Shown here one piece after another: positions 25,200 to 57,680 of a stretch of 64,000 nucleotides of DNA. Made by a program: the position numbers and the translations under genes. Under the pieces are notes generated by a model. It was not told the DNA's origin. It did not search any database and saw nothing but the letters and a program-made list of their open reading frames with translations. The DNA comes from Physcia stellaris (taxonomy: Eukaryota; Ascomycota; Lecanoromycetes; Caliciales; Physciaceae): positions 434,001-498,000 of the forward strand of contig JABSSW010000037.1 of assembly GCA_018902385.1 (NCBI GenBank), read 5' to 3'. Position 1 is the stretch's first letter. Every line of letters starts with the position of its first letter.

Positions 25200-26429
25200 T
25201 TTTTATTTCAAATTTATCAAAACTTATAAATTTGTTATTGAATAATATTTTTTGTTTTCAATAATGAAAATTTTGACGTATTCGAATAAAAAATTTTTTT
25301 TCAACAATGAATTCGTTTTGTTTAAAATCAAAAAACGTTTAACAAAAACGATTTCGTAATCATTTAAATAATAATTCAAAAATAATTCGAAAATCTTTCA
25401 AATTTTTATTTATAAAAAAGTCAATTTGATGATCGTTGAAACATATTGTCAACGAATTTCATTCGAAAATATTTATTCAATCAATTCAATCGTTTTGACG
25501 ATAATTGCAATCAAACGCAATCGAATTTCGATATTTTGATTTCGTTCGTTCGATTTGATATCGATTTCAAATTGAAAACAATGAACAATTTACATTTGAT
25601 TTTTAATCGTTTACAAATGCGTTTTTTCAAATATCGATTTTTGAATTGATCATTTTTTGAAATGTTTCGCAATAAAAATTCGTTAAATTTGAATACGAAA
25701 TATAATGAAACAATATTTTGAAATTTGAAAAATTTGAATTGTTAAATTATCGTCATTCGTAAATCGTTCAAAAAACGTAATGACGTTTTTGATTAAACGA
25801 TCGATAATAATACAAATAACATTATTGTTTTTGAAATCAAATAATTCAATTAAAAAATTGAAAATCGATATATCAATTTATCGTTGATTAAAAATCGACA
25901 ATGAAATTTGACAATTTTATTATTATCATTTGAAAATTTCGATCGTTAACATTTGTAACAATTACGAATATAACGTTTGATGAATAATTGTTTAACAAAT
26001 TTTGAATCAAAAATTTTTTTTTTGTTTTTTTATATAGAACACATTTTATAAAAAAATGTTCAAAAATTATCGATCGAAAAAATGTCGAATTTTTGTTTTC
26101 GTATTTTTTAAAATCGATAAATTCAATTAATATTTAATTTACGTTTTCAATGCAATAAATCATCAAATTTTTTTCGTTCAATTATCAAAATTGTTGCGCT
26201 TTTGCAATTGTTGTATTTTTTGCATCGTAATCATCATCAACGTCAATATTTAATACAATTGACGAAATTTGTAAATCGTTTTTGCGCTTTTCAAAACGCG
26301 AAAATTAATTGAATCGATTTATGTATTGTCGATGTTATTGTCACGATTTTGAATTTCGAAATTTTGTTTTTTTTATCAAACGCGAATTTTGTCAAATTTA
26401 TCGAAATGCAAATCACAACAATCGATACA

Positions 26430-26484
26430 TTTTTTATTTTTTATTTTTTATTTTTTATTTTTTATTTTTTATTTTTTATTTTTA
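26430..26484 (+). repeat. (TTTTTTA)n microsatellite
   Basis: About 7.5 near-perfect copies of the 7-base unit TTTTTTA in tandem. Confidence 0.9.
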
Positions 26485-26849
26485 CATTCATTTTTTCTTT
26501 TCAATTTGTTTTTGTCAATGAATTTCAAAACAATTTTTTTTTCAAATCGTCAATCGTGTTCAAATCAATCAAATGTTTCAAAATTTTTTCGAATTCATCA
26601 TTTCGTTCGTTCGAAAATAACGCGTTTGATTTCGATGTGAACGATTTTTAGAAAATCATCATTTTGATATTTTTCATTTTGCAAAAAAATTCAACGAGAA
26701 CAACGTTTAAACGATTCGAAAAAACGTCGATAAAATTGTTAATTGTCGTTTTCGTTGTTTTCAAAATCGAAAATGTTTAAAAAAATCGAATATCGAAAAA
26801 ATCAATCGATCATTTGAAATCAATTTCAGAATTTTTTACAATTTTATTT

Positions 26850-29800
26850 TTTTGAATTTGTTAATTTACGTTTTCGTCAAAAAATACGTCAATTTGCGCG
26901 TTTCGTTCGAATCGTGTTCTTTTTTCAATCGTTTTTCAAAAAAAAACGATGACGATGATTTCGACGATTTTTTTTTTATACGATCATACGCAAATTTCGT
27001 CGATCACGAATCGAATCACGAAGTCAAAACACGTTTCAAATAACGAGAACGAAAAAAAAAAATCACGTCTGTTTAATAAAAAAATAAAAAAACATACGCA
27101 AAAAAATCGTCAAACAACGCGTTCGAATTCGAAAAATTGATTTCAAAACTCGACGTGACGACAAAAGTTTGAATTTTGATTATATGATCGTTCGCAAAAA
27201 AACGTAATATTTGATAAATATGTATTGTCGAAATTTCAAATAAAAAAAAACGCGTGTTTTTTTTGCGATGTTTATCAATACGACGAAAAATGTCATCGCA
27301 AATTCATCGACGATAAATATTGATATTGTTGCGTCAACGACAAAATCTCATCGAACATGATGATTTCTGAAACAAATTTTGATGTTGTAACGAAATTGCT
27401 CGACGATTTCGAAAAAAACGCAACTTTACAACGTGACGCGAATTTTAAATATTTAAATCATTTTTTGTACGAAATGCGATTTACAGACGATTTCAACAAT
27501 CGCAAACGATTGAACAAACGATACAAAAAATTTCAGAAAATGATCATTACATTCAACAACGTTTTGTCATTTATCAGTGAAAGCGCGAAAATGCATGAAA
27601 AATACAGCGTTTGAATTACGTTTCGCATCATGAAATCAATTTATCACATGTTGAATGTTTTTTTTGTCGATTCAAATGATCGTCGTCGCTTTTGTCAAAT
27701 ATATTCGTTCGATTTTTCGCAAAAAATTTTGTTGAAACGTCTGATTCACGATGAACAATTGTTTGAAAAAAAATTTCATCAATTACAGAAATTGATGATC
27801 AAATACAATTCGTACGTTCAGTCGTTCAAAAATTGTGATGATCGTTTGAAAAATGACGATTCTGAAATCAAAATCGTTTTGAAACAACATGATTTCAAAC
27901 GAATATTAAAAAATACGCACAACAAATTCATTTCTGACGAAATTGTTGTTGTTTTGAACGTTTTCGAAATGTTTGATTCGAATAAATCAATCGAGAAAAA
28001 TATCGTGATGCAAATTTACGACGATGATTTCATTCGAATGTTTTATTGACATTTTTGTTACATAACGTTTCGATATTCTTTTTTGTTTTCTTGCGAAAAA
28101 CAAAATTGAATGTTTATTTTTTTTTTTTCGATCACGAAAACAGTCGTAATTTACGTGTTCGCAAAACTCTTTTCGATGTAACGTTTCGATTTATTCAAAA
28201 ACACGATTTGAAATTTCACGACGACGAAAACGAAAAATTTGCACGCGACGAAAACGAGAAAAACGACGACAACGATATTCGAATTGAAAAAAAAATCGAA
28301 ACGAATGATTCAAAAAAATTCTATTCGTACATCATTCAAATATGTCGTTTTTTGCATTTTTCGCATTGAAATACGTTTTCTATTTCGATTAACTTTTTTT
28401 TTACGTAGATTTTGTCAAATGCTTCGTTTTCTGCACATTGAAAAAAGAAGAAAATTATTACGAAAATCATTTTTTTATTAATAGAATTTTTCATTCGTCA
28501 AATCGTGAAATTTTCAATGACGATAAGCAATTATTCGTGTTTTGAATTTCAACAACGTATTTTTGACACGATTCAACGCGTTATTGAAATTTTCATCACG
28601 ATATAAATTTCGCATACGTTTAGCGAATCGATCGATTGATGCAAAAAAAATACGATGAATTTGTTATTTTTGTTGCGCTCGATCAATGTATTAATATAAA
28701 AATTTCGTTTTTTTTTTCGTTCAATGTATTAGTGTCAAAATCACGTTTTTTTGATGTTATATATACAAAATCGTCAAAAAAAATTCAATCGTGTATTGCA
28801 TTCGAAACGATTGTTTCAACATTTTTTGATGAATGCGTTTGTTTGCGTGAAATTCAACAATTTCAATTTCGTTCGTTTCAATCAGCAATTTTTGCGAGTT
28901 GAATTTTATCGAGATTTGATGAATCGATTGAGTCAAAATTATGAACTCAATGATATTGATCAAAAAATGACGATATTGTCGTCGAATCATATTGAATTTT
29001 TTCGATACATGAAAATCAAAAAGCAAAACGTTTTCGTTTTGATTCGAAAATTCAATAAATTCATTTTTTTCATCATTTTTATTTGCAATTCACGTTGAAA
29101 GAAATTTACGCGAAATTTGTTTGACGTCGTTGATATCGTGAATCGTTTCGATTTGATGATTAAAATGTTTCAATTGAAATTCAAAAAAGTTTTTGCGCGA
29201 TTTTATTGAACGTTATGTCATAAAAATAATGATCGCGCACATTTACGTTATCGAATTTCAAAAAAAAAATTTGTCACACGTTCATATTTTTTTCATTGCA
29301 AATTTTCGAAATGAATTCGATGAAAACAACATTGACGACGTCGTTCATGCAATCATATTTTTCAAAAAAACGTTTGAATTCAACGTTGAACGCAAAATTT
29401 TTACGAATTGATAATTGATCAAATGATTCACAAAAATTGCAAAAAAATCAAAAAAATTTTTGTCATGATTTCGAAAATAAATGCATCAAATGATTTTCGA
29501 AGAAAAAATTAATGATAACGAATTTGTGTCATCATTCGAATTTTCGCGATATCGTCGTTTTTCGTGCGAATCTATCGAAAAAAAATATTGAAACAACAAA
29601 TGAATGATTTTTTACAATTTTTGATTGTTGTAAAAATATGAAATTCATATCAACGTTGAAATTTGCATCAATGCGAAATTCGTGAAATATTTGTACAAAT
29701 ATATTTTCAAAAAAAGCGATCACGTCGATGTATTTTTCAATTTTATTACAATTCGTCGAATCAATGAATTTCATGCGAATCGTCAAAACAATGATGAATT

Positions 29801-32470
29801 CGTTGACGAAATCAAAATTTTCACGACGCGCGTTGAATAAAATTTTGCGAAATCGTTTGACGTATTTTCGATTTTTTTTTCGACGAAATTAAGTTCGCGA
29901 TTATTCGATTTCAATTGCATTTGAAAAATCAAAATCGAATAATCATTAATTCGAACGATAAAAAGATTTCAAATCAATTGATTGAAAACGAAAATTTTCG
30001 CACGATTCAATTGATCGAATATTTCGAATTGAATCGCAAAATTCACGAAATCGAACGCAATAACGAATTTTTTTTCTTTGTCATTCGCAAAAAAAATCGC
30101 GAAATCGTTGTGAATTCACGAAATCATTTTTATCAAAATATTTTCGAATTCTTTGTATGAAATAAAATCAAAAAAATTTGAACGATGCGAAAATTGAACA
30201 AATGCGTAAATCAAATGTATTTCATAAATTTCAAATCAAACGACGTTTTTTATTTACGTTTGTTGCTCGTCAATCGAAAAAAATGCATTTTTTTTGACGA
30301 TTTAAAAATCGTGAATGTGCAAATTGAAAAAACGTTTGATGAAAAAATCGTTTTTCAATTTTTGAATTACAAACAAATTTGCGTTGAATTCGATTTAATT
30401 GACGACGATAACGAATGAAATGCAATTATGATCGAAATCATCGAATTCGATATTGCGACGATATTGAAAAAATTATTCGTGACGATTTTGATCGAATATG
30501 ATTTTGCGAAATTTTTGAAATTGTGAACGAAACACAAAAAAATGTAAATCAATTTCGATTTTTTTCGAATTTTGAAATGTTCGAAATGATTTCGAATATA
30601 CAAAAATTTTGTATGATAATGTTGAATTTTTTAAAATTTTTATTGATCGAAAATGAAATGACACGTGCACGTTTTCAAATGTTTTTTGATTTTTGTTTCG
30701 ATTTTTATTTTTTGCGATCGCATTTTCGATTTTCGTGCATTTTCATTAATTTCATTGCAAATTTTTTTTCGATTGCAAAAATATAATAACTCGCGATTAT
30801 TTTTTATTGCAAAAATTCACGTTGAAAAATTTTATTGAAATCGATTTGAATGCATTGCATCATCAAAAAAAACAATTGACATTGTTTTTGTTGTTTGATT
30901 TGTTGAATAAAATTGTTGACGACGAAATTTCAAATTTTTTTCATTACAATTTGTTCGAATTTTTTATTGATTTCGATCAATACGTTCAAATCAAAAATCG
31001 ATTGATTCGCGAAAAAATGATTTTGATTGATTTTTCAATTTTCGTTGTCGCGAATTGAAACAAATTCAATGCAAATCAATTGCATGCGATCAATACAATC
31101 GTCGAAACGATCAAAAAAAATGAAAATTCGTGAAATTAAAATCAATTTTTCTTTTTTGACGAATTTGAAAACACGAAAAAAATTTTCGTTCAAAACATTG
31201 TCATGATCAAATTGCGCGCGAAAAATGTTATCGTTTTTGCGATGATTTTTTCAAACATTGCGATCACGTTTTTGAAAAACGATTTATTGTTCATTTCAAA
31301 TTCAAAATTTTTTTAAATTCGAAAAATGAAAACATTTGTTCAATTAAAAAAAATATCGATCGTGCGAAATTTATTAAAACTGTCAAATTAATTTTTTGAA
31401 ACGAAATTTTTATGTAACGAAAATATGATTTCATGATCGTTAATCGTATTTTTTCTGATTTTTGCGATGTTGACGAAATTGTTTTTTTTGAAAAAAAAAT
31501 CGTATGTTTTTGCGAAAATTTCAAACAATGTTTTTTTGTTGTTTTTAGAAAATTTCGAAATATTATCGTCAATATGTGTTTGCAAAAATTGTTTTTTTGA
31601 AATGACGTCAAATTTTTTTTTTTATTATCAATATGCGTTTTCAAAATTTTTCGTTTATCGAAAAAAATCGTCAGAAAATTGCTGCTTTCGCTAAAAACGT
31701 TTTAAATATTGACGATACGATAAATATCGACGAAATTACTAATTTCGCATCGTGACATCATGAATATTTATTTAAAACGAATTCTTTGCAAAAACTCATT
31801 AATATCATTTATTTTGATTTGAATTTTCGTTTTTTTAACAATCAATATTTCAATGAACGAATCATTTTTGCGATGACTAACATCGACGTTCAAAAAATCA
31901 ACGAAATTTGCGTCGATAAATTTCGTGAAAACGTGATTTTCAAACACAATTTCAATATTTTCGTGAATTCTGAGTTGAAAAATGAATTCGACGACGAATG
32001 TTTTCATTATTACAACGAAATTTCGTTTTTTTCATACTTTGCGTTTGAAAATCGATATGTTTATCATAATATTTCGAAATTTGAAATTTTTCGTCAAATG
32101 CAATGAAATCAAAACTCGAATTATTCGCATAAATGAACGAATTATCGAAATCGAAATCATTGACGATAAACGAAACGATATCAAAATCGTTATATTTCGC
32201 ATATCGTTGCAATTCAAAAATAACGAAAACAATAAAAATCGTCAAGCGAATGTGTTTTGTCAATTTACTAAACGACAATATTTTATTCGATCGATTTTCG
32301 CGATAATCGTCAACAAATTTCAAAATCAATCGTTGCGATATGTAGAACATTGATATCAAAATGCGATATTGTTTCATTCATGATCAATTTTATGTGATCG
32401 TGTTTAAAATCACGAATAAGCATAATTTTCATTATCGTTATATTTGAATTGAATGTGTTGTCAAACGATT
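26850..32470 (+). mobile_element. Helitron (rolling-circle DNA transposon), decayed Rep-helicase gene
   Basis: Translations in shifting + frames follow the order of a Helitron Rep/helicase protein. Helitron-like N region: IVMQIYDDDFIRMF (~28.0 kb), RFNQQFLRVEFYRDL (~28.9 kb), ILSSNHIEFFRYM and LIRKFNKFIFFIIFICN (~29.0 kb). Rep two-His motif: VIEFQKKNLSHVHIFFI, with HVH at 29277-29285. Then MYFINFKSNDVFYLRLLLVN (~30.2 kb). Pif1-type helicase: an NEIFM relic of WDEAPM (~31.4 kb), ENFKQCFFVV (~31.5 kb), IIFAMTNIDVQKIN (~31.87 kb), HTLRLKIDMFIIIFRN (~32.05 kb), QYFIRSIFAIIVNKFQNQSL (~32.3 kb) and HDQFYVIVFK (~32.38 kb). Several conserved Trp positions are now TGA, for example after CNSR (~29.1 kb) and after DDDNE (~30.42 kb). 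The termini (5' TC, 3' CTRR hairpin) could not be identified, so the ends are approximate. Confidence 0.85.
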
Positions 32471-33899
32471 TTTCGCGAAAAATTATTAATCATCAGTGAA
32501 AAAAAATTCTATTAAATTGAATTAAATTCAATTAAAATTCATGTTATTTTTCGAAATCGATGTCAATTGATTGCGTTTCACGAAATCTGATCATTTCGCT
32601 ATTTATTTAGCAATTTTTACTTATTCAATTTTTTGTTTTTTTATCGTTTTTATTTCGCAACGTGTTCTTATTGCATTCACTTTTTTTATTCGTTCGATTT
32701 TTCGCATTCTTCAAGTTTTTTGCAACATTTTCAGATTGTTTCGTCGTTGTTTGATCGTTTTCAATGTCTGTTTTTCAATTCATTTTGCGAAAATTCGTAT
32801 CAACTAATCAATTCTACGATACGTACTGAATACGAATCTAGTTCGTTTGAAATTTTCTTGAATTGTTTCGTCGAATTTCTATAACAAAATTCAAAAATTT
32901 TCATTTTAACAAGTTTCGTTTTTCGAAACTTATGTTCAACAATCAATGTTACGAAACTATTTTAGTTTTTGAACGTATTACGTTTAATCAAATCAAATAT
33001 ACGAGACATGCGCAATCAGAATCAAAAAACAAATATTCGAAATGATTGAAAAGCGATCAAACAATTTGAAATTGTTGCAAAAAATCGAAAATTCGATTAT
33101 TTGATCGAAATGTTGTTTTGTGACTTATTCTTTTATATGAAAAATACATGTATGTGATGATTAACGTCGATATGTCATAAATAATTTGTAATTGACGTGT
33201 GATGATTGTCGTCATCGTCGATAAAATCGAATTTGTTGAAACTTTGTCATTTTCGCAAAAAAATTTTTTGTTCGAAAATTGATTTGTGCGACATTTTTGT
33301 TTAATTGAAGTCAAATTCAAAATTTCAATTTTTCGTTTTTTCATTTTTGCAAAAAAATGCAATTTGAATCAAATGTCACGATTATGCGCATTATTCGAAT
33401 TCGACTGTAATAAAATTTACGATTGCAATTATTCGTACGTTGTAAAATTTTCAAAAAATAATGACGTATTGCTCGAAAAAATGATTGAATACGAAATATT
33501 GATTGTTCGATTGTTGAAATTTCGAATCTCAATGAAAAAAAAATTTCGACATTCGATTTCAAAAATTTCGAAAAACATTTGTTTTATGCATCACACATTT
33601 TTATGCGCAAACGATTTACGATCGCGAAATTCACGCACATGCATGATTATAATCGTACAATTAAACAGTTTTAAAAAATAATAATTGCAAACGTTGTAAA
33701 ATTACTAATATTGATCGTCGAAATCGTTTTCGTGAAAATTTTCGAATGCTGTTAAAATTTAAAATTACACAATTTTTTTTTTAAAAAAAAATCACGAGCA
33801 AACTTGTAATTTCATATTAAATCAATAATAATAACGTTTAATGAATTTCTCAATACGATTCATGTTCGAATGTGCACAAAAAAATTGATCGTGAACGTC

Positions 33900-36800
33900 A
33901 CGAATTATTTCAATCATCAAATTTAATTGATTCGACATTCATAAATTTTCGTTTTTAAAAAAAATTTCGTTTCGATCGAAACAATTTTGCAAATTTATTT
34001 TTTCGTTAATGATTTGTTCATCGATCAAAATTTGACGATGATTAATACAATTTTCGTTTTTTCGATTGATTTGCATGACGTGTTCGTATAAATCGTTTTG
34101 AACGTCAATCGAACATAATTGCAATCGAAAAAATGACAACAAAATTTGTTTTTTATAAAATTCACGTTCGTCGTTTTCGACGAAACGAAATTCAAACATT
34201 TTAATCAAAACGTTCGTTTTGACGTTTTTGATTTCGAATTGATATTGAATTTTGATGTTGTAATTCGTTAAAATTTCGATTTAACGTATTTGACGAAAAA
34301 TGAATTTTTTGTTTGTCATAAAAATTTTCAAATTTTTGTGATCGATGTAAATTTCGATTGATTCGTCAATATTTTCGAATTCGAATTTTTAATGTTTTAA
34401 ACATCGAATAACGATCAAAAGTTTTTTGTTATATATTTCGTAATTGCATTCGACAAAAATCATTTTTTTGCTGAAAAAAATCATTGAATGAAAAATTTCG
34501 TCGTCGTCGTATTGAAATAAAATTTCATTTAAACATCAATTTGAAAAATCGATTTTCAAAATAGTTTTACGATTGCGATCGTAATGTCGAAAAATTGAAA
34601 TTTCGATTATTTGTTTTTTCAAAATTTCGAATGTCTCGTTAGCGAAATCAATTCATTCGAAATCAATTTTTTTTTTGATCATTCGAATTAAAAATTTGAC
34701 GAATTTCGAAAACGTTTTAATAAAACGTCGATAAAAATTGCAAAAATTCACAAACGTTTGAATTTTTTTGATACACGTTGAGCGAATTCAATTGACGATA
34801 TTTTGTATTTTTTTGAAATTTATGCGTAAATTTTTCGTCGATAATATGATTTTTAAAAATGAAATTTTCGTTTGAAAAAATTCGCATTTTTTGATATCGA
34901 TTTGAAAATCAATTTTTTTCAATTTTTGAAAAATTTGAATAAAATGTCGTTCATGTTGTTTTCGAATTTTATTGTAAATGAAAATGTCATTCAAATACAT
35001 TTGACAAAAATGATTAATGTATTCAAACAACAAATCATTCATGTAATGTTGTCAATTGATTGAATTATTGATAAAATCAAAAAACAACACATGATATTTG
35101 TAAATGTTTAACGAATATATAAAAATAATAAAATTTTTTTTTGTGAAAATTCGAAATTTATTGAAAATCGATATAATATTCAATTTGAACAAAAATTTGC
35201 AATCGATAATTTTACGAAAATTTTTCAATTAGCGAAATAAAATAATTATTACGTTTGATTATGACGTTCAATTTTCGATAATCGACACACAAACGAAATT
35301 TCGTTCGATTTGACGACGAATAAAATGAATAAAACATAAAACGTTTTGTTTGAATTGATAAATTTTTTTTTGAAAATTATCGTGTAAATATTTTGAAAAA
35401 TTTCGAATTTTTTAAACGACGATAAAAAATAAATTCGATTTCGAAATAATTGATTCGAATTTTTCGTCAATTCGATTTTGTGATCGTAAAATTTATGAAA
35501 AAATAATTTATCGATTTTTTTCGAATTGAATACATTTTCGAATCGTTTAAAAAAATCAAAAATTTTACGTTTCAATTTTTCGACGATTGTTTTCATGATT
35601 TTAAATTTTTTTTTGAAATTCAAATCAAAATCAATTTTTATTTTTGATAATTTTTTTTGACGTTGTCAATAATTTCGTTCAATTTTTCATGATTAATGAA
35701 AATGTTTTTTTTTTTTTTTTTTAATTCGATCAGCGATTGAAAAATCGTCGCGTCAATAAAAACGACATTCAACGATGTATCGAAATCGAAATTTTGTTCG
35801 TCATTTTTCATTTCGAAAATTGTAATTTTGAATCGTCGATTAAATCGACGCGTAAATTTTTTGATTATGTCGAATTTTTTTATTGATGCGTTGATCAAAA
35901 TCGATTTTTGAATTTCGCGTATAATTTTCAATTTTCGTTTTTTTTTGAAAAATTTACTTGAAAAATAATTCTTGTTTATTTTTTCAATGACATATTTGAA
36001 ATTTGAAATCAAAATTTTTTTATTGATTGTTCGTTTTTCTTCGAGTTTTTCACAATAAAACGAAAAAAATTATTCGAAAAAATGTCGAAGATTGAACGTT
36101 TTTGCAATATTTGATATTTTTTGAACGTTTGTCGACAAAAAACGACGTTAAAAATCGTTCAAAAAATGAAAATAAAACGTTTTATTCGATCGCTTGTTCG
36201 AATCAAATAATTTTGAAATATAAACGAACGTAATAATCAAAAAAAAATTTCAACGTGATCACAATGATTTGAAATAAAATAACATTCGTCGTTGATTATA
36301 TTGAACATCATTTTATGTTTGTTCATTTAAGATTTTTTTAAAATCAACGAATGTTGTTTTATTTTTGATGATGAACAAAAAAAAACGAAAATTTTTGAAA
36401 TTTTTAATTTATAAACAATTTTGTATCGTCATTTTGAACAATATTTGATGAATAATAAATTTGATTTTCGTTTTTTCGAAATTAAAAACTTTTTTAAATC
36501 GAAATAAAAAAATTGAAATTAATTTTAATTTATGACATATTTTTTGCGCAATTTCTTCATTAATGAAAACGTATTCAAAAATATCGATATCAATTAAATT
36601 ATAAATCATGATTTTTTTATCATTCGAAAACAAATTTATTTTTTTAATTAAAAATTTACAATGAAATTCGTTAAAAATGCTATGCTGAAAATTTCGTAAA
36701 CAAATTCTGATAATTTTTTTCGCGTTTTCGAAAAAAATTGTTAATTTTTCGATTCAACGTCGAATGTGATTGAAACATCGAAATTTATATTATCGTCGTC

Positions 36801-37300
36801 GATATTTGAAAAATTATCGTTGATCGAAAAAAATGATTTGCAAATTAAACATTTTTTGTTTGATCAAATTGTCGATTCAATTATCAAATAATTTGTCAAA
36901 AATGCAATTTTTTTATCAATGATTTTTTTATTACATTTTCGACATTTTTTTTCAATTTAAACAGATTAAAACGAACAATGACAATTTTATACGTTTTTTT
37001 TTATTAAGAAAATCGTATATTTAATTTTCAAATTTTTTATGTATTGTTCATTGCGACGAATTCGAAAACTTAATTGATTGATCGATGATTTGTTTCTAAT
37101 AAAAAAAATATTGATTTTAACATCGTTGTTTTTGATACGACGATGTTTGTTATTCATAATTTGAAATTTGCGAAAATAATCGTCAAAAATTTCATAATCG
37201 TTCAAAACAACGTCGACATGTTGAAATTTCGTTGTGATTTTTTTTTCGAAATCGTGAATTTTGTTCGTTTCATTTTTTTTGAACAATTGATTGATTAAAA
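33900..37300 (-). mobile_element. Gypsy-type LTR retrotransposon fragment
   Basis: Minus-strand translations resemble a Gypsy Pol in the expected order from high to low coordinate: a protease-like segment (~36.6-36.4 kb), the linker to RT (~36.0-35.25 kb, with a KFYDHKIEL-type segment) and the RT catalytic region with YLNDIFIY (~35.0 kb), then RNase H/integrase-side remnants to ~33.9 kb. No LTR pair was found around it. It is an old, thoroughly broken fossil, probably truncated at the integrase side. Boundaries are approximate. Confidence 0.7.
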
Positions 37301-37658
37301 AAAAAATTCGAAATAAAATTCGTTGAAAAATTCAATAAATTTCATTTTCAAATCATCGTATTGACGACGAACGTTTCGAAAATGATCAACATCGATATAA
37401 ATTTAATTTCGTTCAAATTTTTTGGAGAATTTTGAAAATTTTATCAATTGATTCGAAAAAATTGCGTTTAATTTCGCGTCGAATATCGATATGTTTCGCA
37501 AATTTTTTTTGTTCAATTAATAATTGCAAAATTTTTTTGAATTTATCGACGTATCAATCGAAATTGATTTTCAATTTATCAATGCATTTATTTTTTCAAA
37601 TATTATAACGAATGTATTCGAACGTATTGAGATTTTTGTGTTCAAAAAAAAAAAAAAA

Positions 37659-37766
37659 TCAAAATGTTTGAACGAACGCGTTTTAAAATCAAAACGAAAT
37701 TTTTTAACAAAAAAATCAAATTGTTTGAACGAACGCTTTTTAAATTCAAAACGAAATTTTTTTTCG
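37659..37766 (+). repeat. 57-bp tandem duplication
   Basis: Two imperfect head-to-tail copies of a unit beginning TCAAAWTGTTTGAACGAACG, offset by 57 bases. Confidence 0.7.
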
Positions 37767-45989: not shown

Positions 45990-46640
45990 TGAAATTTTTG
46001 TATTCAATTAATGCGAAAATGAAAATAAAAAATGTTTCGTTTGTTTATCGTCAATTGCGCATCTTTTTTCATCAGAAAATTCATCAATTTTTTTTTTTTT
46101 TTCAATTTTTTCACTTTTTTCGTCAACATCATTTTTTTCGTTTTTTTTTTCTCAGTTTCATTCTGCAAATCAAAAATTTGTTTTTTCGTTTTCGTTAATC
46201 GTTCGTCAAATTGATTCGTCAAAATCGTGACACGATTGATCGTTGACTGTGCGCGATTTGCAATAATCGAAATGTATTCATGATTGCGACGTCATTGTTT
46301 CAAATCAACAATCGTATTTTTTTTTCGTTTTTCGATGCGAACGAAAATGAATTGATCGCGACGTTCGATTTTTGCGAATTCGCGCACGATTTTTTTCATT
46401 TATTTTCGAAATCGTTTTGAAAATTGTGATTTGTTAACGTCGTCGCATCGTTTGCGCAAGCAAATACATATCGAATGACAAAAATTTGAATCGTGATGTT
46501 GAAAACGACATTTTTCGCAAATTTTCAAAACATCGCGAACGCACGCATGACGATCAAAACACGTCATACATGCGAAATTTTCGCAAATTATGACATGTTA
46601 ATTTGTTGTTGTTGTTTGCGTTCGTGACGCGTGCGTTTCA
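45990..46640 (-). other. Antisense open-frame region between Pol and the 3' LTR
   Basis: Inside the LTR-bounded element, the minus strand of this stretch keeps long frames that look protein-like: a Cys/His-rich part (~46.6-46.4 kb) followed by a long charged, coiled-coil-like part (for example LTKTKKQIFDLQNE, ~46.18 kb). It is not part of the standard Gypsy Gag-Pol. It could be an extra antisense gene carried by the family or an unrelated insertion. No family is recognised. Confidence 0.4.
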
Positions 46641-47283
46641 AAATATTTACGTCGATTTTTTTGAAAATCGATCATAATTTGAAAGTAAATAAATTTTCGT
46701 ATTGATGATTATATACATAAACAAACGTTGCGCAAACGTTGAAAAATATCTTGCGCGAAAAAAATTGTGATAAAAAATAAAAAAAAAAAAAATGCGAACA
46801 AAAAAATTGTTGATAAACAACATCGTGAAATTATCGACACGTTGTTTTCGCAATCGACGAAATTTCATGTTTATCAACAAAAAAATTCGCGTCGACGTTT
46901 CGATAAAATTGAATTTGAATTTCGTCATTCAAATTTTGATATTGACATTTTGATTATCAATATTGAATTATTGCGATTTCAAATTTGCATTGAAAACATG
47001 TTTTACGATTGCGCAATGATATTGAAAATTTTTTTTCAAAACAAAAATTTGAAAAATTTTTAACGAGTTTTTGAACAAACGATACATGAACGCATTGTGA
47101 TATCGCACATGATATTTTTGAAAATTTTTTTTTTCGTTTGTTTTCGAAATTTTGAAAGTTTTTTGATATTGATTTCAATGAATTTTTTGAAATTTTACAA
47201 TCAAGACATTTACATGTTGTTTTTATTTATTGCATTGATATTGTTTTTATGCATTGAAAATCAACGCATTAAAAAAAAACAAT

Positions 47284-47675
47284 TGTAATACGTTCGCGTT
47301 ATCGAACAATTAATTCATGCGTTAATTTTGAATACGCGTTTGCGTAACGCAAATGTTTGACATTAATAATGAATGTAATTCAAATGTAATTTAATTATAA
47401 ACGCACGTTTAATAAAAACGTCATGAATTGATGTCATAATCATGACGTTAATCAAAACGTCATAATTATTACGTCAAATACGAATATAAATAGATTGTTC
47501 ACTTTCTTTTTCGTTGAATTTCAACGATTAGTTTTACATTTACAGTACTCATACGATGTTGATAGTTAATAATTGAAATTTATTAAATTTCACGTTTTTC
47601 AATAGCTCGGTGCGCTATCGTAGAATTAATACACTATAGAAATCTGCTTTACGTCAGCGCGTTTAAGTCCTTACA
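47284..47675 (+). repeat. 3' LTR of the Gypsy-type element
   Basis: 392 bp, beginning TGTAATACGTTCGCG and ending TCCTTACA. The last ~180 bases keep clearly more CpT/ApG/CpC than its partner, the mirror image of the 5' LTR. Confidence 0.9.
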
Positions 47676-50000
47676 ATATCGAAATCTGAAATAATTGTCG
47701 AAACGATTATTTTATCAACGAGTTCGATTTTCACGATTGCGACAATCAATAATGCTTTACAATCGATGAAAAACGATTCAATTCAATGTTTTTTCGTTTC
47801 GTGAATTTCATTTTCAACGCTTCAATCAGAATATCAGAAAATATTTGTTCGAAAATTTGCAACATTTAATCATATATTCGAATTTGCATCAATTTTCGAA
47901 TCAGTCATTTCATCAAAATGTTCAAATTTTTCGTTTTTTACATTTGAATACATATTCGAATCGACAAAAAATGCATTTATTCAACGTTTTCTTGATTTAT
48001 CAAAATTGCAAATTTCTATTGCAACATTAAAGCAAATATCTGAATCAACATTGATTTTCGAAACAGTCATTTTATCGAAAATCTCGCATTTTTCATTTAA
48101 TACATCAGATACTGTATCAAAGTCGATGAAAAACACGTCAATTTAATATTTATTTATTTCGTCGAAATCATCATCTTTTCAAACGATCGAATCAGAATTT
48201 CAAAAAATTTCTGTTTGAAAATTTTCAGAATTTTGTTCATTTTTTTCAATCGATACAGTCAAATCAATATGTGAAAACAAAAAAAATTCAATTGTTATTT
48301 GTTCGTCTGTTTCGTTTGTTTCGCAAATATCATTTATTTATTTATTTTTTCAATTTTCAAAAAGCGTTGTTACAAATGTCGAATTAATATTTTGTCAATT
48401 CAAAAACATTATTTCGAATTTCATTCGTTTGATAAAACATTACGTTATCGATTAAAACAACAATTCGTTTGTCGTTTTTTGCACATCAACAAAAAAAAAA
48501 ATTCAAAAACAAATAGAAATTGAAAAAATTATTAATCGATCATTTTCATCAATTTGTTTGAATTTTTCGATTGCGATATTCGAAATCAAATCGAAATCAA
48601 CGAAAAAATCAACAATATGTCGACATTGCAACAAAATATTCAATTTCAATAACAAATTTCACAAAGCATATACAGAAATTGAACATTATGTTCGAAAATT
48701 CGTCAAGAATTTGAATTTTCGAAAATTCACATCAAAATTCACATACAAAATTATTGAAAAATCAACAGACATTTGTTCGTTTGTTTCGTTTATTTCGCAA
48801 AAATCATTTATTTTTTTTGCAACATTAAAAAATCAAAAATTTTGATTTTCAACAATTTTCGAATCAGTCATCGCATCGACGCGTTCGAATTTCTCGATTG
48901 CATCATACAAAATCAATTCAAAATCGATGAAAAACGCAATCGTCAATTGTTCATTCATTTTTTCATTTATTTTATCGTATATATCAGTTCGAAAACATCA
49001 AAAATTTCACATTCAAAATTTTTATTTGATTATGAATGATTTGCATCGCATGTTTGTTGAAAAATTTATATCATTTGATTTGCAATAACATCAAAATCGT
49101 TGTCGTTTTTCGCAAAATTTTGATTTTTGTCAATTCGATCGATCACGTTCAATTTTTTCCAAAAAAATTTATTTCACGATCGAAAATTTGTTCGAAATGT
49201 TCGATGAGAAATTCAAAAAAAAAAATCTGTTTTCAAATTAAAATAACGTTTTTTTTCGAGAATTTTTCTCAAAACAATTGCAAATGACGATTTATTTCAA
49301 ATTTACAATCATTCAAAAATCGTCGATTAATCAAAATTCAAAAAATTCAAAATCGAAAAATTTGAATCAACACATGTTTGCGAAATCAATTCGCGCTGTT
49401 TTCAATCAAAATTTGTTTGAAAAAGCGATCAATTTATCATACAAAATATCGAATGTTTTTTGCATCAATTTGAAATTTTTTGTCGAAATTTCTTTTTTTA
49501 TTTTCATATTTTTTCGTTTTTTTTCGATTTTTTTCTTGTTTTCGTATTCGTTTCGATCGTTTCAATTACAAAAATGAATTGCATTAACGTTTACGAACAA
49601 ATCGTTTCGATCATTAATCGTGTTATTCAATAAAAATAATGAATTTGTCGTTTCGAAACGAAATTGAAAAAAAACGAAAAATAAAACGTTTACATTAATG
49701 CGAAACATTTTCAAAAAAGATTTATTGCATACACGTTTTGTTGAATGCAATGAACACATCAATTATCGCATGTGCGTAAATATCGATGCGTTAATCGTTG
49801 TTGCGTTGATTTTATTAACATGACGAAATTGTTCGTTTCATCGTATAATCGATTTGAAATTGCAAAAATTCAACGTTTACATTAATGTTTTCATTACATT
49901 CAAAAATTCGAATTTTCAATCTTTTACATTCTAAATTACGTATTAGATTTTGAAAAAGCAAATTCTCGATCGTTTGTTTATTTCATTATTTACGTTATCG
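47676..50000 (+). other. Unassigned repeat-derived stretch with Gag-like zinc-finger remnants
   Basis: Plus-strand translations include a CRHCNKIFNFNNKFHKAYTE segment (~48.62-48.68 kb) like the single-finger modules seen in some fungal retroelement-associated proteins. A related DNA segment beginning TTTGTTCGTYTGTTTCGTTT occurs at ~48.30 and ~48.77 kb. It probably belongs to another retroelement-derived gene; it is a fossil with many breaks, and its ends are unclear. Confidence 0.4.
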
Positions 50001-50499
50001 TTTGCATTTTTTGCGAATTGATTGTAAATCAGCATTTTTATCAACTGAAATGATTTCGATTTCAAATATTTCGCATAAATTTACATTCGTCATCAAAATA
50101 CAAATATTTTTATTCACATCGAAAGTTTGATAAAAACGAATCGCTATTTTGATCAAAAATTCAAAACATTGAACAATTTTCTCGTTTCGATCAATTTGTT
50201 TCGAAATTTTCGAATGTCAAATATTTTCAAATGATTTATCATGTCATTTATTCGCGAATATTTTGATTCATGTTTCGCTGTCAAATTTCGAATTTGAATT
50301 CGAAAACGTTTTCATTTTTTCTATTTTGTATTTGTATTAATCATTAATGAATATCGCATGCATGTTTCAATTGTTTAAACGATTTTCGCACATACAAAAT
50401 CGCATAATTTGCAAAAAAAAAATTCGTCGTTTTCGTCGTTTTCATTTCAAATTTTTGTACGATTTCATGATTGTCGCGTTCGTTATGAATTTCACATAT

Positions 50500-53400
50500 T
50501 TACGAACAAATTATCAAGATCACGTATTTTGTCGATCGATGAAAAAAAAAAAACAATAAATTAATTTTTTCGAAACGAAGTTGAAATAATTTTGATGTTT
50601 GTAATCAATCAAAAAACATCACGTCAAATCAAACTCGTGATACATTCATTTTTATGATTTTTTCACAATTTTCTGTTTCGACGTTACAATTTTTGCGTTA
50701 TTTACAGTCAGAATTTACGACGCATGAAAAACTGAATCGTGTCAAAAACATTTTCAGAAATTGTTGTTCGATTTTATTGAATTGCGAAAAAATAACAAAA
50801 TATTGAAAAGATTTGAAATTCGAATGCATACATACAAATGAATCAATATTTATGATTTTCGTCAAAATTTTCAACAAAATTTTTAATTGCTTATTAATGA
50901 TCGACGAAATTATCTGTTAAATTTTTAGAAACAAATTATTTTTCAAAAAGTTTATTACATACACATTTTGCTGAATAAAACGTATATATCAATTGTCGTA
51001 TATGCGCAAATATTAACGCGTTAATCGTTGCGACATTGATTTTATTAACATGACGAAATTGTTTGTTTCATGATATAATCGATTTGATGTTTTGAACGAA
51101 TTTTCGACGAATTCATTTCGCAAACGAAATTCACTTCGCAAAATTTTACATTTACATATTTTTTTGTTTCAACGATTATTCAATTAAACGTCATTTCACA
51201 AACGCATTTAAATCGCACAAAATGTTCATCAAAAAAAAATTTATTAGTCGTTTCGAAACGAAATTGAAAAAAAACGAAAAGTAATGTGACGAACGTGTAT
51301 CGAATTCAACATTTGACAAAATTAACATTTTTATTTTATCACATCGAATGACAAAATCGAAATTCGTTTATGATCAAATTTTTTACATATGTTTTTGCAA
51401 ATTTTCATGTATTTGCTTTTCACTTCGATATTTTCGTGTAATTATGTATTAATATCATATCAATGCATGACATTTTACAAACGTCGCAAAATTTCGATTT
51501 TTAAATTTGTTTCATTTGATACATATACAACATATCAATATCGTAAAATATTGTTCGAATTTAACGTTCAATTTTTAAATTTTTTGTCGTTTCGTATGAA
51601 CGCGCGACGTTTTACGTATTTATTATCGAACATTTATAATTTTTCAATTTTATTGAAAAATTTTTGAAATGAATTTTCGTACGAATTTTTTTTGTCACAC
51701 GTTTTAACAATTTTTTTTCGACGCATTGTTTGTCATATCGCGATAATTTCGTTTTAAAAAAAATTTTTTAAAAATTTTTTGTTAAAAATTTTTTCGCATT
51801 GTTCAAATTTCGTTAAAAACGCGATATTGACAATTGCGATATTTCGAAATTTGTTTTGCAACATGAATAAACAAATATTATCGTTTTCGTTTTCGTTTTC
51901 GTAATTTGAACGTCGAAATGATTCGTTTGTCGAATTAAAATTTTTATTTTTGTATTTGATTTCGAAATCATATTTATTTAACAATAAAATTCATTTGATT
52001 TGTCGTTGATTCAAAAACGTGATAAACATGAAATATTTCAAATTATTATGATTCGACATTACGATAATCGTAAATTGATTATTTTTTAAATAATGACGTT
52101 ATTGTTTGAAAAATTTCACGATAATAAACAATTTTTGATCGTGCGTTGAATATTTGATTTCGATAAATATTATTTTTTTTGAATAAAAAACGACGAAATG
52201 TCATTACGTTTGATTTTCGATATCGAAATTTTTTATCAATTGCAAAATCATTGTTGCGATAACGAATTTTGAAACATCGATTTCAATCATTGTTTGATTG
52301 TTAAAATCGAAATGTATTAACATAAACGTTTCGATAAACATACAAATGAATTTTTTGAAAATTTTCATTATTTCGTCGTTTCAAATGAATTCGTCGATTT
52401 GTTTTTCGTTTTTGTTATTTTTTAATAATTCGAAAAATGAACGCGACATTTTCGCGTATTTTACGATGAATTTTCGATAAAAATTCGCGAATTTCAAAAA
52501 AATTTGCAATTTTTTCAAATTGTCAAAAATCGATCATGATTTAATCGAATTTATTTTTTTCATGTTCATAAATATTTTTTTGTTATTGATAATATATTTT
52601 AAAAATTCGATAAATTTTTACATAAATCGACATTTGATCAAATTGACGAAAAAATTGAATTTTCGAAAACGTTTAAATATCGTTTTTACGTAACGTCAAT
52701 GTTTTTTTTTTCGTTCGAAAATAAATCAAAATGTCGTTTAAAAATAATATATACAATTTGTTTATCAATTTTGCAAACATTTTGTTTATAAACGATTGAA
52801 AAATTGTCGACACGTTAATAAAATCGAAAAACATCACGATATATTCGAAAAAATCGTATCGTATTCGAAATACGATTTTTCATTCATTATTCGTTTTGAT
52901 TTTTATACGATAATACGCGTTTTTTAAATTTAATTTGATAAAATACACGACGTTCATTAAACGATTCAATATTTCATCAATTAACGATAATAAAATTTTG
53001 TTTTTGATCGTAATCGCATTCAAATTTCTGTAATTCACGCAAAATTTTAAATTTTCATTTTTTTGAAAATAAACAATATCGACGTATCAATATCGACAAT
53101 CGAATGTTTGATACGATTCAACGCAAAATTTTCGCAAATATATTTTTGAAAAATTTTTAATTTTTTTTAAAATATATTGTACAAAAATTCGAAAAACGAA
53201 AATTTGTTCGACATTAAATTAATAACATGATCGTGTTTGTCGTGCGAAAAAAACGTGATCGTTAATTTAAAAAAAATACATTTTCGAATATTTACAATTC
53301 GTTCGAAATTTCGATCGACGTTTCGTTATTTTTTCGTATAATGTATATCAACGCGTATATTGAAATAATATTATCGTTCAACATTGTCGTGAAATTTTCG

Positions 53401-55100
53401 AAAATGTTTAATTTCAATCGATTTTTTTGATTGTGTAACGTCACGTTATCGTAAATCAATGTACGTGTGAATTGTTTTAAATCATTTATGAAAAATTCAT
53501 TATCAAAAAATATATCAAATTTTGAAACGAATAAAATTTTTGTATTGAAATGAAAAAAATTTATTTTTGTCATTACGAACATTCATTTTCATTTAATACG
53601 TATTAATGAAAAATTTGTTTTCGACATCGAAATTATTCATTTTCGTGAACGTTTCGTCGATATTTTGCAAATTTTATTTTTCGTCAACGATTTCGAAATG
53701 CAATTTATATCAATAATCGAATTCATGAAATTTATTTGCGATTGTTATTTTTCAAAAATATTGACGTTAACGCGAATGAATATATCATTTGATTGAATTT
53801 TTGTGTGAATTCAAAACGACAACGACAATTATTGTAATAAATTTTTTCAATCTTTCGAATCGTTTTTGATTTCGATAAATTTTGAAAATATTTTGTTTTT
53901 ATTTTTGCGAATCGCATTGACGTCGACGATTTTTTTTTTTGAATAAAAACAATATTTTTTTATGTTTCGATTTATCGCAATTGTAACAATTTCGATTTTT
54001 TTTTTCGTCGACGAATCGACGTCGTTTTTTGTTTTTGTTAAATTGATTTTTCGTTTTATCAAATTGCGCAAAAAAAAAATTTTTGACGATTTTTTATTTT
54101 TTTGACGTTCACGATTATCGAACGACGAAATTTGCGAAAATCGAAAACGTTTTGAAAATTTTTGATAAAATGACGATCGTTTCGCATTAACGATTTTGAT
54201 CAAAATTTTTTGACGAATCGTCGACGAAATTGCGTCGAATATGATAATTTTTCGTAAAATATCGTTCAAATCATAAAAAAATTTGTTTCGTTTGATATTT
54301 TCGATGACATTCAATTTTGTTTTTAACAATTCGAAATGCGTTGCGAATTCGTTTATCGTTTTTTTTGTTTAATATTATTGTATTTTTGATTCACATCAAA
54401 ACGACGAATTTCAAAAAATTCGACATTGTTGTGAAAAAATTTCGAAAAATACGATCACGTTCTCATCAATTTTTTTCGATATTGATTGATTTTTTCATGC
54501 GATTTTCATAATTCGATTGAAATCGTATCAAAAAATTGTTGCGTTCAATCGATTTTGATACGACGTTTGAAAAAATAATTAAAATTTGTATCGAAAATTC
54601 ACACGACGTTTCGAATTCACGATTGAAATTTTTTAATATTTTTGACGTTGTAAATGAATAAATTTTTGAATTTGAATTCGATAATTCGTCGAAAACGCGA
54701 ACGTTTTGAAATAAATTTATTACGAAATTTTTCGTTGTCGTCATTGTCATTGTCGTTTTCGTTATTAAAAAACGTTTGTGAACGTTTTCGTTTTTTCTCA
54801 ACAACGCGAATTGAATTAATTTTATTTTTTCGAAATGACGTTGTATCGAAACGTTTGATTTTTTTCAAAAACAATTTATATTCACGTTTGTTTTTCGTTT
54901 TTTTTTCAATTATCGTTTGAATTGTTTGCAATTGTGCGTAATTAATTTGATTATCGAATTTGAAATCGTCGATATTCGTTGAAACGACGATAATATGTCG
55001 AAACAACACGCGAAAAACAACAACAATGCGTTCGTCGTTTGATAAATTTTCATAAATTGAAATCAATTCGTTTCATTGATCGATTTCAAATTAAAACGAT
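50500..55100 (-). mobile_element. Gypsy-type LTR retrotransposon, minus strand
   Basis: From high to low coordinate: a Gag-like region (~55.07-53.85 kb), a protease-side segment (~53.6-53.3 kb), RT-like blocks (~53.0-52.6 kb) and the RNase H end with a LNKYDFEIKYKNKNFNSTNE segment (~51.98-51.75 kb). The order and orientation are consistent with one Gypsy element. LTRs were not found. It is an old fossil with many breaks; boundaries are approximate. Confidence 0.65.
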
Positions 55101-55246
55101 TTCACGATCGTGTTGTCGAATAATAATTGTTGAAACGAAATGACGATATTGTTTCGAATTACGAACGCAATGACAACAAATATTTTCGAAATTTTAAATG
55201 ATATTGTTTGATCGAACAATCATTACGAAAATTTAAACGATTCAAA

Positions 55247-55457
55247 ATTGTAAAAAAATATACGATTAAATGATCAAATGATTACAAACAAACGTAATGT
55301 TTACGAAACAATAATAAATCATCGTGATGATATTGTAAATAATGATAAAATTAAATCGTGAAAACGAAAAAAAATGAAAATTTTCGAAATGTTATATTTT
55401 ATCGATCAAGACGTTAAATTCGATCAGATTAACGTGCTTGATTTTTTGACATGACAT
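55247..55457 (+). repeat. Left terminal inverted repeat
   Basis: Pairs with 57470-57680 in inverted orientation. It is more heavily AT-shifted than the right arm, the differences again being mostly loss of CpT/ApG. Confidence 0.75.
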
Positions 55458-56718
55458 AACAATTACGATTTGTTCGATTTTGATAAAATTAATGTTCAAA
55501 AACGATTATCACGTTTATTCAACGTTATCGTCGTCGAAATTAATAATTTTAACATCAATCGAAATTTGATTTTTTTTTTTTCATTCGAAAAATTCGCAAA
55601 ACGCATAATTGAAAAATTTTCATTGACGCGAAACGAATCGATCATAAAACGTAAAATTTGATTGATATCGACGAATCGAAATTTCAAACGTAACAACAAA
55701 TTTTCAATGAAACGATATTGATTTGATTTTTTTTGTTATATAAAATGTTATTGAATTTTCACAATTGTATTTTTCAAACGCAATTGCAAATTGAATATTA
55801 AATAATCGCGTTTGTATTTAATTGCAAACGTCAAAATCATCAAATGTTATTAAATTCGACGAATATATTTAAAAAAAATTGATATGCAAAATTTGCGAAT
55901 CGACATGCACGTAAAACATTTATCGTCGTAAAACGATTGAAAACATTGCGCAAATCAACGCGATCAATTGAAAATACAAAATACATATTTCATGTTTAAC
56001 ATCGTTAAATTTGCGTTTGACGCATTTCATACAACATTTTACACGAAACGTGTTCACAACACGTTTAAAAAATTACAAAAATTAATACACAAAATCACGA
56101 AATTAAATCAAATTTACAGTTTTGATTTTGACGTCACACGAAATCATTACGTGTTTCAATGATGACAAAAAAACAATAAATTTATTGTTGACAATTTTGA
56201 TATTGTACAAATTGTCAACGTCAACGAAACACAATTTAAACGCGAAAAACATTTTTATCAAATTGTTTCAAAATAATATTAAAAAAAAAAATGAAAAAAT
56301 GATCGTAATGAATTTTTGTGTACGCGTCAAAACGTTAATCAAATGTTCAACACATTTATCAAAACAAACGACGAACGCGATGAATCGCAAATGAAACGAA
56401 AAAAAATCGTACAACGAACGCGACAATACGTTTGTTCAACGACGACAATTAATGTCGATTCGAACAATTGAAAATCAATTTTTTTCATTTCACATTGAAA
56501 ACGTAATAATGAATAAAATCGTCGTCACGTCATCGATTCATGAATTACAATAAACATTTTATCATTTGAATTACAATGAACATTTGTCATTGATAATGAA
56601 AATAAATCATGTAAAAATAAAAATGAATAAAAATCAAAACAAATTTATTTATATTTGAAATGACGCAAAAAAATCGTTATCAAAACACAAATCGAAAAAT
56701 AAAAAAATAAAAAAACGA

Positions 56719-57025
56719 TGTTCAAACGTCGATTCGAACGACAATTTCAAAAATCAAAAAATTTTGATTTTTGCGTTTTATCATTAAATTATTTGAACGA
56801 TAACAAATAAAAAATCAAATTGAAATTTATGTTTTATTTTGACACGAATAAATTATCACGCGTAAAATCAAATGACACGAATAAAACGTGAAAAAATCGT
56901 CATTAAAACAAAAAAAAACGAAACAAAAAGCAAAAAAACATTGTTCAAAAATCGATTTGAACGATTATTTTTGAAATCAAAAAATTTTGATTTCAACGTT
57001 TTATTGTTAAATTATTTGAATTATA
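56719..57025 (+). repeat. Direct repeat of ~84 bp, two copies
   Basis: Copy one at about 56719-56802 and copy two at about 56942-57025 share a TGTTCAAA start, an AAATCAAAAAATTTTGATTT centre and a TTAAATTATTTGAA end. They lie inside the inverted-repeat element. Confidence 0.6.
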
Positions 57026-57469
57026 CAAAAATTGATTTAAATCGTTTATTTCAATATCAAAAAACAAAACGTGCTCGAAAATCAAAAATTACGTTCAAAA
57101 AAAATTGAATTCGCGAAAAACAAACGTCGCAAAAACGTTTGTTTTCGTTTGTTCAACAAAAATAACAATGTATTGATAATTCGAGCAAATATTGATTTGA
57201 ACATATTCGTGTCGTATATTATGAATATCGTGATACATCGCAAATAACAATATTACGATTAACAAAAAAATTATCGTATGATCGCGAACATCAACATTGA
57301 AAATTACAAATAAATTTTAATTGAAAATCGCGCAAACAAAAATTGACGTCAAATAAAAAATTATTTTCACGAGATTTTTTTAAACGAAAAAAATTGAAAA
57401 ATCGAATGAATTATACGCAAAAAAACATCGACGATTCGATTTTGAAAATCAAAAAAAAAAAAAACAATT

Positions 57470-57680
57470 GTCATGTTAAAATCGTCAAACACGTTAATTT
57501 GATCGAATTTAACGTTTTGATCGATAAAATATAACATTTCGAAAATTTTCATTTTTTTTTTCGTTTTCACGATTCAATTTTATCATTATTCACAATGTTA
57601 TCACGATGATTATTATCGTTTCGTAAACATGCGTTTGTTTGTAATCGTTTGATCACTCAGTCGTATATTTTCTTACAGTG
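57470..57680 (-). repeat. Right terminal inverted repeat
   Basis: Reverse-complement partner of 55247-55457; its outer 40 bases retain CTC, CAG and CTT words, marking the end of the heavily mutated block. Confidence 0.75.

Follow-up and report, generated by a model that had tools for sequence, protein, structure and literature searches.

In Neurospora crassa, repeat-induced point mutation (RIP) changes C:G into T:A pairs on both strands of repeated DNA, leaves AT-rich islands and goes together with methyltransferases of the RID and DIM-2 classes. Its preference is given as CpA>CpT>CpG>CpC (PMC5496416) and its homology requirement as 80% or more over 400 bp or more (PMC3017866), and raised CpT mutation is reported for some N. 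crassa repeats (PMC2621366, PMC5555474); these and all further papers are cited from the accessible parts of their text. Here, a 32-kb block of repeats in Physcia stellaris is described, which lies in a stretch of 64 kb (434001-498000 of contig C37, hereafter the window; genome 43.97 Mb, 147 contigs). The block and its genome share with RIP of N. crassa the C:G>T:A changes on both strands of repeats, the AT-rich composition and the presence of candidate RID-class and DIM-2-class methyltransferases, but the first target of the textbook (CpA) is spared and CpC, the last one, is hit first. Positions refer to the window unless another contig or locus is named. CpY and CpR denote a cytosine followed by a pyrimidine or a purine, respectively.

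CpT-biased RIP beside CpA has been described for Magnaporthe oryzae, Botrytis cinerea and Sclerotinia sclerotiorum (PMC4352252) as well as for Anisogramma (PMC10998396). The CpT signature and one or two class-I (RID/Masc1) genes are shared with P. stellaris, whereas CpT accompanies CpA in those fungi and no CpC signature is listed in the accessible part of that survey; in the present case, CpC is the leading context and CpA is spared. For RIP regions of Monilinia species, mainly CpA>TpA changes are expected and a double change of CpC to TpT is mentioned (PMC8959702), so that CpC is among the mutated sites as in the present case, but the classical CpA remains the main one. In Trichoderma reesei, RIP was shown by experiment with CpA and CpG leading and CpC last (PMC5496416), which is also a preference unlike that of N. 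crassa, but with a rank of CpC opposite to that in P. stellaris. For Rhizoctonia solani AG8 and other basidiomycetes, a hypermutation with CpG bias is reported, with heterozygous single nucleotide polymorphisms (SNPs) over genes and repeats alike; Table 2 of the same paper gives an average SNP spacing of 214 bp for CpC (the shortest), 370 bp for CpG, 422 bp for CpA and 491 bp for CpT, and a TpCpG context is named for Pucciniomycotina (PMC4014442). C>T changes with a bias for the 3′ neighbor are common to these basidiomycetes and P. stellaris, but in the latter hardly any CpG sites are changed and the genes are spared. Furthermore, methylation induced premeiotically (MIP), a methylation without mutation, leaves the sequence unchanged, whereas here the sequence is changed.

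A 2025 analysis of more than 1000 fungal genomes states that RIP-like defenses share the CpA preference (PMC12543289), and CpC is given as overrepresented in PMC12774611. A CpC-led mutation of repeats with CpA spared was found undescribed in the open-access literature searched, outside of which most subscription journals lie; the table in PMC4014442 and the remark in PMC8959702 come nearest. The term "CPC" in PMC5602860, PMC4234444 and PMC11105155 was discarded, as in the accessible text it stands for a strain, a program or the initials of an author.

Loss of CpC and CpT From the Block

The block (25200-57650; 32,451 nt) has a guanine plus cytosine (GC) content of 24.9%, is non-coding and consists of nested retrotransposon-like repeats, which are saturated with C>T changes at CpY on both strands. 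The unmutated genic flank (670-22387; GC content 48.9%) was used as composition control. An earlier note on this DNA, made from the letters alone, had claimed that CpT, CpC, ApG and GpG are nearly absent over 32 kb while CpA and CpG stay common. Both statements are borne out by the counts, which are CC 2, GG 4, CT 178 and AG 189 (observed/expected 0.00, 0.01, 0.12, and 0.13) on the one side and CA 1882, TG 1847 (1.25 and 1.21) and CG 1989 (3.95) on the other; CpT and CpC together are far below CpA, and the proposal of a CpY preference stands. Per kb, CC+GG amounts to 0.18 in the block versus 113.5 in the flank and CT+AG to 11.3 versus 131.7. CA+TG (114.9 versus 139.9) and CG (61.3 versus 51.8) are close to the per-base frequency of the flank. 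The six CC and GG dinucleotides compare with a minimum of 917 in 200 mononucleotide shuffles.

If all CpC and CpT dinucleotides in the flank are converted to TpC and TpT on both strands, the GC content becomes 0.244 (block 0.249) and the 16 dinucleotides fit those of the block with a summed absolute difference of 0.081, compared to 0.68 for the unconverted flank. A CpA-type conversion (summed difference 0.80) and a uniform C>T conversion of 50% (0.39) were rejected as models. A coding sequence or viral genome of odd composition was rejected as well, since the block leaves hardly any room for glycine (GGN) and proline (CCN) codons and contains a recognizable remnant of the retrotransposon type.

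The scarcity of TpA had also been claimed. The 3 TpA against 10 ApT at 25501-25560 are exact, but over the block TpA (1847; observed/expected 0.40) is rare only when measured against the high A+T content; its plain frequency of 5.69% is not below that of the flank (4.75%), as a CpY-only process predicts. Another suggestion, a partial protection of CTG/CAG, does not hold. The survival of CpT trinucleotides (block/flank) is 0.098 for CTG, 0.111 for CTT, 0.087 for CTA and 0.047 for CTC, and at aligned CpT sites the mutated share by the +2 base is 0.80 for G, 0.79 for T, 0.76 for A and 0.75 for C.

Surveys rely on three indices for RIP (product, substrate and composite; PMC7882544), which are built on TpA and CpA (PMC5496416, PMC2621366). 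As anticipated in the earlier note, such indices miss the block, because none of its 128 overlapping 500-nt windows reaches the classical thresholds (TpA/ApT 0.43 and (CpA+TpG)/(ApC+GpT) 1.38 for the whole block). CpY depletion is not confined to the analyzed stretch. It is present in 659 of the 688 overlapping windows from 20 other repeat places of the genome, which were chosen as holders of the repeat at 25200 and are not a random genome sample, and none of these 688 windows passes the classical thresholds either. The index (CpC+GpG)/(TpC+GpA), which is already defined in RIPCAL (PMC2621366), gives 0.001 for the block and 0.80 for the flank.

Direction, Order and Target of the Mutations

A gradual series of states was found for an integrase piece. 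Two copies, L054 (contig C12; GC content 0.53) and L055 (contig C5), are 96% identical and unmutated; their 11 differences are of mixed kinds, and no CpY C>T change leads from L054 to L055. Both have long open frames (1151 and 457 aa) and are multi-copy elements that have so far escaped. Among the best 40 of 86 candidates, 38 further copies range from 89% down to 74% identity, of which five near the top of the list (L056 to L060; 89, 84, 82, 80, and 79% identity) were read. The unmutated 288-nt relative served as reference at those positions where L054 and L055 agree. The 11 disagreeing positions were dropped, including one (a GGG) with G>A in four of the five graded copies.

The five copies carry 235 substitutions, of which 232 are C:G>T:A and 221 are CpY>TpY. 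Pooled by the next base, C>T changes were found at 169/202 CpC, 52/120 CpT, 8/190 CpA and 3/205 CpG sites (CpC versus CpA p 5e-65, CpC versus CpT p 1e-13; pooled rows, which are not independent). CpA is therefore not the main mutated context, and the cytosine-to-thymine process on both strands with a preference for a following pyrimidine, which had been deduced from composition, is supported by aligned repeat copies. From the least to the most mutated copy, the mutated sites are CC 23/42, CT 6/24, CA 1/39 and CG 1/41 in L056; CC 34/40, CT 6/24, CA 1/38 and CG 1/41 in L057; CC 37/40, CT 10/24, CA 1/38 and CG 0/41 in L058; CC 36/40, CT 15/24, CA 2/38 and CG 0/41 in L059; and CC 39/40, CT 15/24, CA 3/38 and CG 1/41 in L060. 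The bases at -1 and +2 have little effect; by the -1 base, the mutated CpC sites are A 35/41, C 34/41, G 73/90 and T 27/30.

In L056, one strand was hit almost alone, with 1/27 mutated CpY sites on the plus strand and 28/39 on the minus strand (p 1e-8). The hit strand has lost CpC (22/26) and CpT (6/13) together within 288 nt. Strand bias was also found in a second family, where it is strong for L038 and L040 (p 5e-8 and 3e-7) and weak for L039 (p 0.008); the bias of L038 and L040 counts as one event, as their mutated states are correlated (0.84) by shared history.

This second family was found via an intermediate copy at the start of contig C8, and 18 copies of 1.4-2.4 kb were aligned of the 51 matches listed. 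CC+GG is at most 3.4/kb in each of them, CT+AG falls from 71.2 to 2.5/kb across the copies, and CG amounts to 57-68/kb; CA+TG is lowest (96/kb) in the copy with the most mutations and amounts to 116-135/kb in the other 17. By copy, 47-98% of the CpT cells, 9-22% of the CpA cells and 9-14% of the CpG cells are mutated. Sites before a column mixed for A and G are mutated to 19-38%; sites with a mixed next column were excluded from the context rates, and columns with bases beyond C and T were dropped. The loss of CpC is underestimated in this alignment, since sites where every copy has lost its C are invisible.

CpC is lost first and CpT second, an order that is absent from the earlier reading. 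In 23 of the 351 500-nt windows from L009-L028, CpC is down with CpT above 25% of the flank value, and the reverse was found in none. At 21 CCR sites which are intact in some copy, the cell states are TC 257, CC 29, TT 14 and CT 9, the latter all at a single site. The first (5′) C of CC is therefore the target. Taken directly from the alignments, the 5′ C of CC is hit, the bases at -1 and +2 are nearly irrelevant, both strands are affected in sum and CpR is mostly left.

The mutated states of 11 copies were compared in pairs, and in 53 of the 55 pairs the correlation lies between -0.04 and 0.19, so that most copies were mutated separately rather than through the spread of a mutated master. The exceptions are L038/L040 and L044/L045 (0.80), which have a shared history. 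Their shared mutated sites point to duplication or gene conversion after mutation.

A third family, consisting of 21 copies of the repeat at 25200 of the window, is saturated. Its variation is mostly C/T, with 66 columns at CpA (T being the rarer state) and 28 at CpG, and this CpA/CpG change is a slower second phase. The 20 copies of 25200-25989 from outside the window are 91-98% identical to each other and 84-87% identical to the copy in the window. As CpR is mostly spared and CpY saturates, mutated copies would converge on one sequence and stay recognizable as repeats, which would not be expected of copies after classical RIP.

Repeat Families in the Block

Searches with 25200-27200, 28000-36000, 36000-44000 and 44000-57650 showed that at least 29,565 of the 32,451 nt have other genomic copies; 799 nt lay outside these queries. 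The repeat families are nested, with from few to more than 30 further copies among the matches listed, and their mutational state is known for the fetched loci. The inner part of the family-D terminal repeat (25200-25989) is saturated and was found at 38 other places among the best 40 of 436 candidates. Family C (28000-33807, about 5.8 kb) has at least three more long copies with 87-90% identity and a further copy (92%) with a length of 3.2 kb. The internal part of family D follows at 33807-39020, and its first 2.2 kb occur at at least 35 more places (83-95% identity).

The family-A element (40339-47703) has at least 11 more long copies with 94-97% identity over the first half. Due to its terminal direct repeats (40352-40692 and 47284-47625) and a remnant of a Tf2-1-like SH3 domain (45000-45449), at least this element bears the marks of a gypsy-like long terminal repeat (LTR) element. 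Family B (51480-55493, about 4 kb) has at least nine more long copies (91-93%). Finally, there is a stretch with inverted arms (55249-57677; arms 55249-55441 and 57485-57677, in three pieces), and its inner part has at least two more copies. A tRNA-Phe(aaa) was called by ARAGORN on the minus strand at 56719-56798 inside the mutated block and is probably spurious. The fungal nature of the DNA is apparent from a Fungal_trans transcription factor domain, recognized by its Pfam profile, from the tRNA ligase described below and from the short introns of the methyltransferase genes.

Edges of the Block and Spared DNA

The limits of 25200 and 57650 given in the earlier note enclose the saturated part, but the edges are graded and reach from near 24743 to about 58250. 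On the left, the outer part of the family-D terminal repeat (24743-25199, 457 nt) is partly mutated (CC+GG 30.6/kb, CT+AG 56.9/kb); in five other copies, the corresponding section has CC+GG 0/kb and CT+AG 2-18/kb. On the right, 57651-58250 is intermediate with CC+GG 1 and CT+AG 32 in 600 nt, i.e., CpC is gone and CpT is partly left.

The block adjoins a fungal tRNA ligase gene on the minus strand (22388-24742). Up to 24499 the gene has a normal CpY content, which is reduced at 24500-24742 (CC+GG 65.8/kb versus 108.6/kb further in). The genic flanks, including the ligase gene up to 24499, are spared as neighboring single-copy genes. No second copy of 22388-24502 was found among the matches listed. 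Those listed for the gene are of two kinds: matches to its first 44 nt, a part of the family-D repeat, and a weak match of 72% to a piece of 110 nt (24503-24612) on contig C40, collinear with a 44-nt family-D match there (C40:90205-90537). Either a longer repeat is present at C40:90205-90537 or the match there is a mutated duplicate of part of the ligase gene. The lowered CpY content at 24500-24742 could be an edge effect or leakage, and given the match on C40 this part is possibly not single-copy. The 5′ end of the ligase gene (22388-24818) is overlain by the transposon terminal repeat from about 24743. Upstream of the catalytic motif, shifting frames and stops were found; the gene may have been damaged by the insertion together with edge mutation.

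A different kind of spared DNA is a 2.33-kb element at L026:5616-7946, which lies inside a saturated family-D repeat and whose terminal repeats (about 183 nt) are 96% identical to each other. Its GC content is 48-54% within saturated surroundings, and the change in composition coincides with the element ends. This island had been considered as a spared single-copy gene, but it was dropped as single-copy control because it is itself repeated, with many relatives of 65-96% identity, of which the letters were read for a piece at L020. Six C:G>T:A changes (CpC 4/36, CpG 2/11) set the left terminal repeat apart from the right one, and compared to the L020 piece the element is mutated at CpC 7/73, CpT 1/46, CpA 0/44 and CpG 3/47, perhaps the first stage of the process.

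Candidate Methyltransferases

A search of the genome with the PF00145 profile yielded three genes, which were read with introns of 54, 60 and 80 nt placed by hand and each of which has the family motifs. Of the enzymes for which a search had been suggested in the earlier note, two RID/Masc1-class candidates and one DIM-2-class candidate were thus found, and the AID/APOBEC domain APOBEC_N (PF08210) gave no match in the genome (a control matched 1 of 14 genomes, below the cut-off). General cytidine/tRNA deaminase domains gave 11 matches.

According to PMC4352252, class-I RID/Masc1 genes occur only in Ascomycota and are characterized by PF00145 without BAH or RFD and by a PS00094 pattern that is usually absent (18/19). 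The two putative class-I genes, which point to an ascomycete, are RID-A (C6:791557; 515 aa as read) and RID-B (C5:499307; up to 935 aa as read). They share 40% identity over 307 residues of the catalytic part and 34% over 149 N-terminal residues. A Pfam scan of RID-A and of residues 220-935 of RID-B found PF00145 only, without BAH or RFD. PS00094 is absent in RID-B and present in RID-A. Both carry EET or EQT, which we take to be a mark of the RID class, and the third gene carries ENV. Class-II enzymes such as DIM-2 are characterized by PS00094, a catalytic domain of larger size and BAH. The third, DIM-2-like gene on contig C3 encodes at least 1,118 aa with a large catalytic domain (PF00145 at residues 610-1001), DUF7893 and PS00094; its BAH match is below the cut-off (18.9 of 30.8 bits).

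A Probable RIP-Like Process With Nearly Inverted Preference

These data are best explained by a RIP-like, repeat-directed hypermutation whose preference is nearly inverted to CpC>CpT>>CpA~CpG, to which we assign a probability of about 0.85. It is supported by the near-exclusive C:G>T:A changes, the location in repeats, the mostly independent hits, the hit on one strand and the two RID/Masc1-class genes. The process resembles RIP in its presumed mechanism, but the CpA preference of RIP and the gain of TpA are not found here. A dependence on homology is suggested by the location of the mutations in repeats.

Mechanistically, the candidate enzyme is a DNA cytosine methyltransferase, either of the RID/Masc1 class with its two paralogs or of the DIM-2 class, which would act on duplicated DNA, by analogy with Neurospora probably around the sexual cycle. 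One strand would be converted at a time, and repeated rounds on either strand would lead to saturation. CpC would be converted first and almost completely, CpT more slowly and CpA and CpG hardly. It seems reasonably likely that the enzyme is a RID/Masc1-class protein, or a pair of paralogs for CpC and CpT, re-specified to a 3′ pyrimidine, with a preference that mirrors that of Neurospora RIP and one strand per hit.

Several observations weigh against this interpretation. Two 96%-identical integrase copies are unmutated though repeated, and the 2.3-kb element in L026 is barely touched inside a saturated repeat. Being repeated is thus insufficient at any one moment; the near-intact element fits episodic action or recent arrival. 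For 2,087 queried nt of the block no second copy is present among the matches listed, and the match on C40 makes the single-copy state of 24503-24742 doubtful. Strand bias is missing in the other four graded integrase copies, which are more mutated (p 0.19 to 1.0), and in 6 of the 9 partly mutated 2.4-kb copies of the second family that were tested. Finally, CpA and CpG are mutated at a low rate in older copies, so that CpR is slow rather than immune.

Alternative Explanations

Two separate processes, with one RID paralog writing CpC and the other one (or DIM-2) writing CpT, are a tentative and rather unlikely alternative. In the families read, the loss of CpC precedes that of CpT, the two class-I enzymes are only 40% identical in the catalytic part, and PMC4352252 connects CpT signatures with a motif of class-I enzymes in fungi with one or two class-I copies. 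However, CpC and CpT were hit together on the one strand of L056, which makes one enzyme with a graded preference the simpler explanation.

Slow mutation of heterochromatin is improbable. In this case, CpY would be methylated in silent repeats, e.g., by a DIM-2-like enzyme, and lost by spontaneous deamination without an active mutator. A DIM-2-class gene is present in the genome, and DIM-2 of Neurospora methylates with a CpT preference according to a review (PMC13297926). CpY change has, however, run far ahead of ordinary mutation, as 221 of the 235 changes are CpY>TpY and only 3 are not C:G>T:A, and the one-strand hit in L056 also speaks for an active process. The near-untouched element in L026 with its sharp borders points in the same direction, although its recent arrival would explain this as well.

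An AID/APOBEC-kind deaminase editing single-stranded retroelement cDNA or DNA would account for the strand-biased, coordinated C>T hit and for the retroelement targets, and general deaminase domains are present in the genome. AID/APOBEC enzymes read the 5′ neighbor, whereas here the 3′ context decides, the -1 base has hardly any influence and the process targets the 5′ C of CC whatever the upstream base. In addition, APOBEC_N is unmatched, and both strands were hit in those copies that are more mutated, which renders this explanation very improbable. Ultraviolet (UV) damage at dipyrimidines, to which both CpC and CpT belong, or a sequencing or assembly artifact has a negligible probability, as the 5′ C of CC is hit and its 3′ C mostly spared, TpC is kept (6.79% in the block versus 7.11% in the flank), the genic flanks are normal, the composition borders are element ends and graded states occur in copies on many contigs.

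Significance of the CpC-Led Mutation

The repeats of P. stellaris are saturated with mutations to an extreme degree, for which the usual indices point the wrong way. If the interpretation as a RIP-like process is true, repeat-directed mutation can take on an almost completely different context, and fungi with such a system would be scored RIP-negative in index-based surveys; the (CpC+GpG)/(TpC+GpA) index would reveal other fungi of this kind. The copies in P. stellaris form a natural ladder for a stepwise study, from unmutated over one strand hit, CpC gone and CpT half gone to saturated. Finally, the two diverged RID-class paralogs are candidates for mapping how the sequence context is recognized.

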